Assembly (NCBI GenBank): GCA_021818905.1
Contig: JAKASS010000004.1
Location: 1-64,000 of the forward strand
Length of the DNA: 64,000 bases
Reading direction: 5' to 3'
DNA from: Nanobdellota archaeon
GTDB taxonomy: Archaea > Nanobdellota > Nanobdellia > Parvarchaeales > Parvarchaeaceae
Both the position numbers and the translations under genes were made by a program. Under the pieces are notes generated by a model. The model ran no database searches. It was not told where the DNA came from and saw only the letters and a program-made list of their open reading frames with translations. This document shows positions 23,268-26,401 of the stretch, piece after piece. The first letter of the stretch is position 1. Each line of letters begins with the position of its first letter.

Positions 23268-24422
23268 ATGAACGGCAATGAAGTGAAGATAAGCATTGGA
23301 TTAGAAGGGATTTACATAGCGGAGACTAAGGTCTGTAAAATAGACGGCATTGCCGGCAAGCTCTGGTACAGGGGTTATCCGATAGAGAGCTTAGCCGCCG
23401 ACTCAAGTTTTGAGGAAGTCGCTTACCTCCTTCTTTATGGTTCACTTCCGAAGAAAACGGAACTTGACTCTTTTGCCGAACAGCTCAAAAAAGAGAGAGA
23501 TATTTCTGATAATATAAAAATGATAATAAAGAGCCTCGCACAAAAATCCCACCCTATGGACGTACTTAGAACCGCGGTATCTGCTCTATCGTCGGAAGAC
23601 CCAGAACTGACTGATAATTCTCCTGAAGCCAATCTTAGAAAGGCGGTCCGGCTTACGGCAAAGATGACGACTATTGTGGCCGCGATAGGAAGGATGCGTG
23701 CTGGAAAGGATTACATTAAGCCAGATAATAGCCTGGGGCATGCCGAAAACTTCATGTACATGCTTAGTGGTTCAAAACCAAATAAAGAGGTAGCAAAATT
23801 CATAGACCTGATGCTAGTACTGCACGCCGAACATGGGACAAATGCGTCCACGTTTTCTACGATGGTGACCGGCTCTACGCTTGCAGATCTATACGCCGCG
23901 ATCACGTCGGGAATATGCGCTTTAAAGGGCCCGCTCCATGGCGGAGCAGACGAAGCGGCGCTTAAGATGATGCGGACGATCGGGGACCCGGCTAATACGG
24001 AGAAGTACATAGAGGACGCTCTCGCTGGAAAGCAAAAGATAATGGGCTTCGGCCACAGAGTATACAAAACTTACGATCCGCGGGCAAAAATACTACGTTC
24101 ATGGTTCACAGACATCGGGTCTAAATCGTCTGGAGAAGTGAAAACCCTTACTGAAACCGCGCTTAGGGCCGAGAAGATGATGATAGAAAGACTCGGCGCT
24201 TCCCATGGGATATGGCCGAACATAGATTTTTTCTCTGGGCCACTTTACATATGGGCAGGCGTGCCGGCCGAACTTTTCACTCCGATTTTTGCCGCTGCAA
24301 GAGTGACTGGCTGGTCCGCTCACATGCTGGAATATTGGCCTAACAATAAGATTTTTAGACCTTTGGATCACTATACTGGCCAATTAGATCTAAAGTATAT
24401 AAACATAAATGACAGAAAATAA
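23268..24422 (+). CDS. gltA: Citrate synthase
   Basis: The 384-residue enzyme condenses acetyl-CoA with oxaloacetate. The catalytic histidines and aspartate are in LKGPLHGGADEAAL, MGFGHRVYKTYDPRA and the downstream IDFFSGPLY. Length fits the short archaeal/Gram-positive type. A GAGGAGG Shine-Dalgarno sits just before the ATG. It ends the plus-strand run of TCA genes (sucC, sucD, trx, oxidoreductase, citrate synthase). A 2-methylcitrate synthase role is possible for this family. Confidence 0.95.
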   Translation: MNGNEVKISIGLEGIYIAETKVCKIDGIAGKLWYRGYPIESLAADSSFEEVAYLLLYGSLPKKTELDSFAEQLKKERDISDNIKMIIKSLAQKSHPMDVLRTAVSALSSEDPELTDNSPEANLRKAVRLTAKMTTIVAAIGRMRAGKDYIKPDNSLGHAENFMYMLSGSKPNKEVAKFIDLMLVLHAEHGTNASTFSTMVTGSTLADLYAAITSGICALKGPLHGGADEAALKMMRTIGDPANTEKYIEDALAGKQKIMGFGHRVYKTYDPRAKILRSWFTDIGSKSSGEVKTLTETALRAEKMMIERLGASHGIWPNIDFFSGPLYIWAGVPAELFTPIFAAARVTGWSAHMLEYWPNNKIFRPLDHYTGQLDLKYININDRK

Positions 24423-24468
24423 AAACGGACCATTTACGTTTTGCTACACGAGGCCAATCGCGTTTTAA

Positions 24469-24480
24469 GGCATAAATATC
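24469..24480 (+). promoter_or_regulatory. TATA box of the cysteine-rich minigene
   Basis: GGCATAAATATC lies about 24 bases upstream of the ATG at 24500, the distance expected for a leaderless archaeal transcript. It supports that the tiny downstream frame is a real gene. Confidence 0.5.
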
Positions 24481-24499
24481 CAAAGATCAATATGATAAT

Positions 24500-24595
24500 A
24501 TGAAAAAAACGTCTAAGAAAAGAGCTGTCAACTGCACTTGCAAATGTTGCAAACATCCCGACACCAAGTGTGACTGCAGCTGCGGTTGTTGCTGA
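24500..24595 (+). CDS. Cysteine-rich miniprotein, metallothionein-like
   Basis: This 31-residue frame begins MKKTSKKRAV and ends with 20 residues holding nine cysteines in C-x-C and C-C groupings (CTCKCC, then CDCSCGCC after a KHPDTK spacer), plus one histidine. Such spacing is typical of metal-thiolate peptides that chelate Zn, Cu or Cd. The basic N-terminus could bind nucleic acid or simply aid solubility. A TATA box sits at leaderless distance. It stands alone between citrate synthase and DNA ligase. Function is inferred from composition only. Confidence 0.65.
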   Translation: MKKTSKKRAVNCTCKCCKHPDTKCDCSCGCC

Positions 24596-24673
24596 TCGAC
24601 GCTGAAATATTTTTAGCTGCCGGTTTCTATCGATAAGCATTAGTTATAAATCCGCTAGAAAACTATTGATTCT

Positions 24674-26401
24674 ATGAGGTTCGAAGAACTTAGCCGATAC
24701 CTATTAAGATTGGAGTCTACAAGCAAAAGACTTGAGATGTTTGACATACTTTCTGATGCCTTTTCAAAGGCCGATAAAAAGGACATAGCCAAGACCGTAT
24801 ACCTTATGCAGGAGGAGCTTATGCCGCCTTTCTTTAATGTCCAATTAGGCATCGCGGACAGAATGGTGGAAAAAGCCATAGCAGACGCTTATGGCGTTGA
24901 TCTAGAAACCGTAAAATCGTCAAATAAAAAGTTGGGCGACCTCGGTGAGGTAGCCGAAAAATACGGCAAAGGCGCGGAAAAATCGAGGCTAACGGTTTCC
25001 GAGGTCTACGACAGAATATTCAAACTATCGCAGATGTCCGGCGAAGGCAGCGTTGAGACAAAGATAAATTCCCTTTCAGACCTGTTGAAAGAATGCTCCC
25101 AACTCGAAGCAAAATATATAATAAGGTTCGTGATGGGCAAGCTAAGACTTGGCGTAGGGGAAGCCACCATAATGGAAGCGCTATCAAAAGCAAAGACAAA
25201 CGATAGAAGATTCAAGGCGGAACTGGAACGGGCGTTCAACCTTTGTTCTGACCTTGGGTATGTAGCCGAGGTATTTTATGATAAGGGTGAAGGGGGCATT
25301 AAAAAATTCCAGATAGAAGTCATGAGACCGATAAGACCCGCGTTGGCGGAGCGGCTTGGAAGCGCCGAGGAGATAATAGACAAACTGGGCAGATGCGCCA
25401 TAGACCAAAAATTTGACGGCTTTAGGTCGCAGGTGCACAAAAACGGCGACGAGGTCAAGGTATTTTCCAGAAACCTTGAGGACATAACCCATTTTATGCC
25501 GGAGATAGTCTCTGCGGTCAGAAAATTAAAACACGAGAAACTGATATTCGACAGCGAAGCACTTACTTACGATGAGGATACAAACACATTATATCCGTTT
25601 CAGATAACTATACAGCGAAAAAGAAAACACGGTATAGCAGAGATATCGGAGAGTTACCCACTTCGGCTATTCGTATTCGACCTAATGCTCATCGATGATG
25701 AAAGCCTTATGAACAAGCCATACAAAGAACGGCGAGCAAGAATAGACGAGATATTCAAAGATGGAGAAACCATCTCTAAGTCAAAAATAATAATAACGGA
25801 CGACCCAAAGGAACTTACAAAGTTCTTTGAAGAAACGATAGGCTCTGGGCTAGAGGGGGTAGTCGCTAAGAAGCTTGATGGAATTTATTCCGCTGGCGCA
25901 AGAAACTTCAATTGGATAAAAATAAAAAGATCATACAAATCCCAACTTAATGACACGATCGATATCGTGATATTGGGTTATTTCAAAGGGCGGGGAATGA
26001 GGGCGGACTTCGGGATAGGCGCGGTTCTCGGCGGAGTATATAACAAAGCCAAAGACACTTTCGAGACTATAACAAAGGTCGGCTCTGGCTTCTCTGAGGA
26101 ACAATTTAAGATTCTCAGAAAAATGCTTGACCAGATAAAAGTCCCACATAAACCGGCAAGGGTAGATTCTATAATGATCCCAGATGTATGGGTAGACCCA
26201 AAATATGTAATAACAGTAAAGGCGGATGAAATAACTAGAAGTCCTACGCATACGTGTGATATGAAAAATGGAGTTGGCTATGCGCTTAGGTTCCCTAGAG
26301 CTGTCATGTTCATAAGGGGGGACAAAAGTGCCGCAGATGCAAATACGTCTAAAGAGATAGTAGAAATGTTTAATAACCAGAAGAAGGTTGAATTAAGATA
26401 A
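24674..26401 (+). CDS. lig: ATP-dependent DNA ligase
   Basis: The 575-residue replicative ligase of archaeal type seals nicks using ATP. It has an N-terminal helical DNA-binding domain (residues 1-190), the adenylation motif AIDQKFDGFRSQVHK with the AMP-accepting lysine (near 243), FDSEALTYD, GLEGVVAKK, WIKIKRSY, and an OB-fold end. A TATA-like AGTTATAAATCC is about 30 bases upstream. The stop is one base from the agmatinase gene, so the two probably share a transcript. Confidence 0.96.
   Translation: MRFEELSRYLLRLESTSKRLEMFDILSDAFSKADKKDIAKTVYLMQEELMPPFFNVQLGIADRMVEKAIADAYGVDLETVKSSNKKLGDLGEVAEKYGKGAEKSRLTVSEVYDRIFKLSQMSGEGSVETKINSLSDLLKECSQLEAKYIIRFVMGKLRLGVGEATIMEALSKAKTNDRRFKAELERAFNLCSDLGYVAEVFYDKGEGGIKKFQIEVMRPIRPALAERLGSAEEIIDKLGRCAIDQKFDGFRSQVHKNGDEVKVFSRNLEDITHFMPEIVSAVRKLKHEKLIFDSEALTYDEDTNTLYPFQITIQRKRKHGIAEISESYPLRLFVFDLMLIDDESLMNKPYKERRARIDEIFKDGETISKSKIIITDDPKELTKFFEETIGSGLEGVVAKKLDGIYSAGARNFNWIKIKRSYKSQLNDTIDIVILGYFKGRGMRADFGIGAVLGGVYNKAKDTFETITKVGSGFSEEQFKILRKMLDQIKVPHKPARVDSIMIPDVWVDPKYVITVKADEITRSPTHTCDMKNGVGYALRFPRAVMFIRGDKSAADANTSKEIVEMFNNQKKVELR

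Follow-up and report, generated by a model that had tools for sequence, protein, structure and literature searches.

The beta domain of vertebrate metallothioneins consists of about 30 residues, among them nine Cys with C-x-C motifs and no aromatics, and binds three divalent ions. Bacterial metallothioneins of the SmtA/BmtA type are small and Cys-rich, with His as an extra ligand, and a structure with a Zn3Cys9His cluster has been described for PflQ2 MT of Pseudomonas fluorescens (PMC7387436). In archaea, the zinc-finger micro-proteins of Haloferax volcanii carry two C(P)XCG motifs, providing four Cys for one Zn, and AlphaFold yields no evidence on metal binding for peptides of such kind (PMC11241148). 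The phrase 'archaeal metallothionein' itself occurs in no paper of the open-access literature searched.

The window analyzed here, a 64,000-nt stretch from the genome of a Nanobdellota archaeon (G000), contains a 31-residue, nine-Cys ORF between the genes for citrate synthase and an ATP-dependent DNA ligase (Table 1), exactly where the initial annotation had placed it. All nine Cys (positions 12, 14, 16, 17, 24, 26, 28, 30, and 31) are confined to the C-terminal 20 residues, as had been claimed, and together with one His they constitute the candidate metal ligands; the residues before the cluster form the basic start that had also been pointed out, the whole peptide having eight K/R versus two D/E. 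The TATA box reported at a leaderless distance is likewise present. Its spacing from the ATG fits a leaderless archaeal promoter, and it is retained as CATAAATA in both of the closest relatives of G000, G024 and G012, with the TATA-like boxes TATAAATA and TATAAATG located at a similar distance from the ORF in G019 and G004, respectively. The ligase gene, which follows the end of the ORF after a gap of 78 nt in G000, is preceded by a separate TATA-like element, and the two genes are therefore probably on separate transcripts, as far as can be told from the sequence; this suggests that ligase expression starts from a promoter of its own rather than by transcription through the 31-aa ORF.

Table 1. 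Features of the family A locus in the window
Feature	Position	Strand	Description
Citrate synthase gene, neighbor of the ORF	23268-24422	+	PF00285
TATA-like box of the ORF	24470-24479	+	GCATAAATAT, ~26 nt 5' of the ORF ATG
Family A ORF	24500..24595	+	MKKTSKKRAVNCTCKCCKHPDTKCDCSCGCC; 31 codons + TGA (range includes stop)
Cys cluster, residues 12-31	24533..24592	+	C-T-C-K-C-C-K-H-P-D-T-K-C-D-C-S-C-G-C-C
TATA-like box of the DNA ligase gene	24643..24651	+	GTTATAAAT, 5' of the ligase ATG (24674); from sequence, three-species alignment
ATP-dependent DNA ligase gene, neighbor of the ORF	24674-26401	+	PF01068/04675/04679

The ligand inventory of the 31-aa peptide, nine Cys and one His, is also that of PflQ2 MT (PMC7387436), and the peptide resembles bacterial metallothioneins of the SmtA/BmtA type in being small and Cys-rich with His as a potential extra ligand. 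However, the family to which it belongs, hereafter family A, differs from the bacterial proteins in its length of 29-36 residues, in its spacing (C-x-C-C...K-C-x-C-x-C-x-C-C), and in its archaeal host. In contrast to SmtA/SmtB-type operons, the gene lacks an adjacent SmtB-like regulator, and unlike named bacterial metallothioneins the family has no Pfam or NCBIfam match; for the window protein, no family was found at E <= 10, although sequences this short seldom score. Sequence searches of PHROGs and the PDB gave no match for family A either. With the vertebrate beta domain, the 31-aa peptide shares its size, the nine Cys, the C-x-C motifs, and the lack of aromatics, but each of its Cys groups ends in a C-C pair and it contains a His, and the PDB search did not match the peptide to this domain. 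As a very small archaeal protein with conserved Cys, it is reminiscent of the C(P)XCG micro-proteins of H. volcanii, yet it has no C(P)XCG motif and about twice the number of Cys. The metal-thiolate signature put forward in the initial annotation thus stands as far as composition and spacing are concerned, which are metallothionein-like and devoid of zinc-finger motifs, but the peptide matches no named metallothionein family. The fitting name is metallothionein-like, rather than member of a named metallothionein family.

Family A is present in 10 of the 28 genomes of the genus, namely the window genome and G012, G024, G013, G019, G022, G004, G006, G023, and G027, the G006 copy scoring E = 8e-9 with profile A2, which itself contained the G006 sequence. 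G023 (L507, G023:C2) and G027 (L508, G027:C4) are 99.4% identical over nearly 8 kb, and their copies are therefore counted once; the two are listed as different species, and one may be mis-binned or the pair may be very close. The distinct sequences have seven to nine Cys each (22-31% of residues), and alignments A1 and A2 reveal the core C-x-C-C-x-H-x(3-4)-K-C-x-C-x-C-x-C-C, along with shortened variants. One His is found in seven of the nine distinct sequences, the exceptions being those of G022 and G006.

The family A gene is upstream of the DNA ligase gene in six genomes (G000, G012, G024, G013, G019, and G006), whereas the copies of G022, G004, and G023/G027 are elsewhere and not beside the ligase, and citrate synthase precedes it only in G000, G012, and G024. 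Hence, the proposal to look for the frame between citrate synthase and ligase in relatives was borne out in part: homologs exist in nine other genomes, but the slot is occupied in three genomes only, G000 being one of them. A 210-aa gene of unknown function (L389:3376-4008) separates the family A gene from the ligase in G012 and in neither G000 nor G024. Family A was not found in the other 18 genomes of the genus, several of which are incomplete. Outside the genus, profiles A1 and A2 were run against two overlapping samples from the class and phylum (378 and 371 genomes, over 400 in all) and retrieved no convincing full-length relative; weak hits were sporadic, being partial or containing stops. 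In addition, tblastn against plasmids and phages gave no match, Cys-pattern scans of viral contigs matched low-complexity sequence or the wrong strand, and the matches listed for a degenerate 8-Cys pattern in genome contigs were low-complexity sequence. As far as searched, family A appears to be restricted to one archaeal genus.

The ORF is very short and is overlapped on the opposite strand by a 68-aa ORF (24434-24640), features that would be in line with a chance ORF or an antisense artefact without a product. Such an explanation is extremely improbable, as nothing comparable arises in simulated sequence: 60 replicas of the window generated with an order-1 Markov model (3.84 Mb in total) yielded ~28,500 ORFs with lengths of 20-70 aa, none of which has at least six Cys per 20 residues. 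The best Cys count per 20 residues is nine in this ORF and five in the next ORF of the window, and the binomial probability of at least nine Cys in 31 residues is 4e-13 at 0.65% Cys, the frequency in long ORFs of the window. The comparative data are strongly opposed to an artefact as well. The frame is conserved, and the Ka/Ks check against the two closest relatives that had been proposed gives dN/dS values of 0.18 (G000-G024), 0.07 (G000-G012), and 0.12 (G024-G012), which are rough, given the shortness of the ORF and a dS close to saturation in one pair. For the DNA ligase, the same pairs give about 0.04, 0.04, and 0.01; the values of the ORF, well below 1 but above those of the ligase, thus indicate purifying selection less tight than that on the ligase. 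Across the three pairs, Cys codons show six silent and no replacing changes, non-Cys codons show 18 replacing changes, and the sole indel in the ORF, 6 nt in G024, is in frame. Neither loss of the frame nor random replacement of Cys, which the initial annotation had named as evidence against the gene, is observed: the frame occurs in nine other genomes, and the changes in Cys codons among the three closest genomes are silent. Judged from these comparisons, the 31-aa ORF is a real coding gene that is selectively maintained. Two other candidates were rejected, antisense coding because the opposite-strand ORF is interrupted by stops in G012, and an RNA gene because Rfam and tRNA searches gave no match and the fold is ordinary (z = 0.11).

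The function of the product can be viewed in several ways. A structural zinc micro-protein, holding one or two Zn and binding DNA, RNA, or protein through its basic tail, perhaps in relation to the ligase, would agree with the basic N-terminus of most family A members and with the location of six of the 10 copies upstream of the DNA ligase gene. We consider this unlikely, since C(P)XCG is absent and the Cys are spaced as C-x-C and C-C, eight or nine Cys in 20 residues exceed the need of one finger, and hydrophobic or aromatic residues for a core are almost lacking; moreover, the gene is not adjacent to the ligase in G004, G022, and G023/G027, and the 210-aa gene intervenes in G012. The Cys-Cys terminus just before the stop and the short distance to the ligase in G000 might also bring to mind a leader peptide rich in Cys that would sense the supply of cysteine through its own translation and would attenuate the DNA ligase gene downstream. 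Against this very improbable scenario, the downstream gene varies (the 210-aa gene in G012, a convergent gene in G004), the ligase is located elsewhere in G022 and G027, non-Cys residues are conserved too (the MxK start, His, and Lys), the RNA fold is unremarkable, and the ligase has a TATA-like box of its own.

Cys content alone is unable to discriminate a metal store from a thiol-redox or Fe-S peptide, in which the Cys would serve for redox buffering or coordinate an Fe-S center, and metallothioneins scavenge reactive oxygen too (PMC7387436), which counts for such a role. Nevertheless, the ferredoxin-type CxxCxxC motif is absent, and the conserved His with C-x-C/C-C spacing better fits polythiolate metal clusters, making a thiol-redox or Fe-S function improbable.

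The product is most likely a metal-binding, metallothionein-like peptide, as its composition and Cys arrangement predict. It has the very high Cys content of metallothioneins (nine of 31 residues; about 20-30% being the usual range), their conserved C-x-C/C-C arrangement, which is apparent in alignments A1 and A2 and in the Cys codon counts, and few or no aromatics, these being absent in eight of the nine distinct sequences, with two Tyr in the G006 copy. On the other hand, the variability of the family, in both the number of Cys (7 to 9) and the loss of His in two members, counts against a metallothionein, as do the missing matches to curated metallothionein models, the lack of adjoining metal genes in the loci examined, and the 18 genomes of the genus in which the gene was not found. 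Overall, this real gene is probably transcribed on its own and makes a cytosolic peptide of 31 residues that buffers or sequesters metal in a metallothionein-like manner via a metal-thiolate cluster. Mechanistically, the C-terminal 20 residues, with nine Cys, one His, and no aromatics, would enclose a few thiophilic metal ions in a small cluster, about three in the case of Zn(II)/Cd(II) and a larger number in that of Cu(I), whereby the peptide would buffer or sequester metal as metallothioneins do, and the lysine-rich N-terminus would form a soluble extension that may have an additional role. We infer transcription, translation, metal binding, its stoichiometry, the identity of the metal, and the physiological role. 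The peptide may protect the cell against acid-mine metals; from genome size and gene content, a small-genome acidophile of the Parvarchaeota kind is a plausible host.

No metal genes adjoin family A in the loci examined, and an SmtB-like metal-responsive repressor was seen by eye neither beside the ORF nor among the ORFs at other copies. Elsewhere, G000 encodes a 694-aa P1B ATPase of the copper type (G000:C18:39454-39999), whose sequence contains a CPC motif and, N-terminally, a YHS/TRASH-like Cys motif; about eight further genomes of the genus encode similar ATPases. The CPC-motif ATPase indicates that soft-metal handling matters to the cell. Its YHS/TRASH-like N-terminus takes the place of an HMA domain, which was detected in none of the 28 genomes of the genus versus 13 of 14 control genomes. 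It is tempting to speculate that the family A peptide takes over part of the role of a copper chaperone.

Relatives without family A often have other Cys-rich mini-proteins, differently placed. These types are grouped here by Cys-richness, and homology among them is not claimed. A 22-residue type (family B), of which MAEEEKEEKCGCGCGCNCGCSD is one example, is found in 14 genomes, weak matches included, and in eleven of them its start lies about 20-36 nt downstream of pyrG, a gene identified as CTP synthase by its sequence. This mini-ORF is acidic, with C-G-C repeats ending in CGCSD (e.g., G014:C18:36859-36924, L408), and in some genomes the next gene encodes a protein of 69-86 aa in which MAYKFSCRATGLDCDF occurs. 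Other types include MANEEPRKEEDKSCDCGSGCGCGCC in G011, MDKKEKTKKQTESKDDSCNCGCGCC in G004, and MSEEKNDKKDGCGCGRAEGSEEGCCCGKC in G015, the last of which occupies the citrate synthase-ligase slot, the same as family A. The ligase tree nests G011 and G015 within the clade with most family A genomes (100/99 support), and this placement hints that Cys-rich types replace one another, a hint limited by incomplete genomes and by the pyrG linkage of the 22-residue type. The idea that families A and B strictly exclude each other was rejected: G023 and G004 carry family A plus another Cys-rich mini-ORF, and B is tied to pyrG, itself undetected in nine of the 10 family A genomes (G022 being the exception), including G000, which is listed as 100% complete. 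Most of the remaining genomes of the genus do have pyrG.

Genes this small are readily omitted from annotations. As a conserved family under selection, family A provides a defined peptide of 31 residues for synthesis and metal-binding tests, and a search model for comparable genes in other archaea. We advance only tentatively, as a possibility open to considerable doubt, that it represents the first archaeal metallothionein family, and that most genomes of the genus would have a Cys-rich metal-buffering mini-protein whose types have been repeatedly swapped. If true, the function would be kept while sequence and locus turn over, from family A to the 22-aa pyrG-linked type or to types of 25-29 aa.
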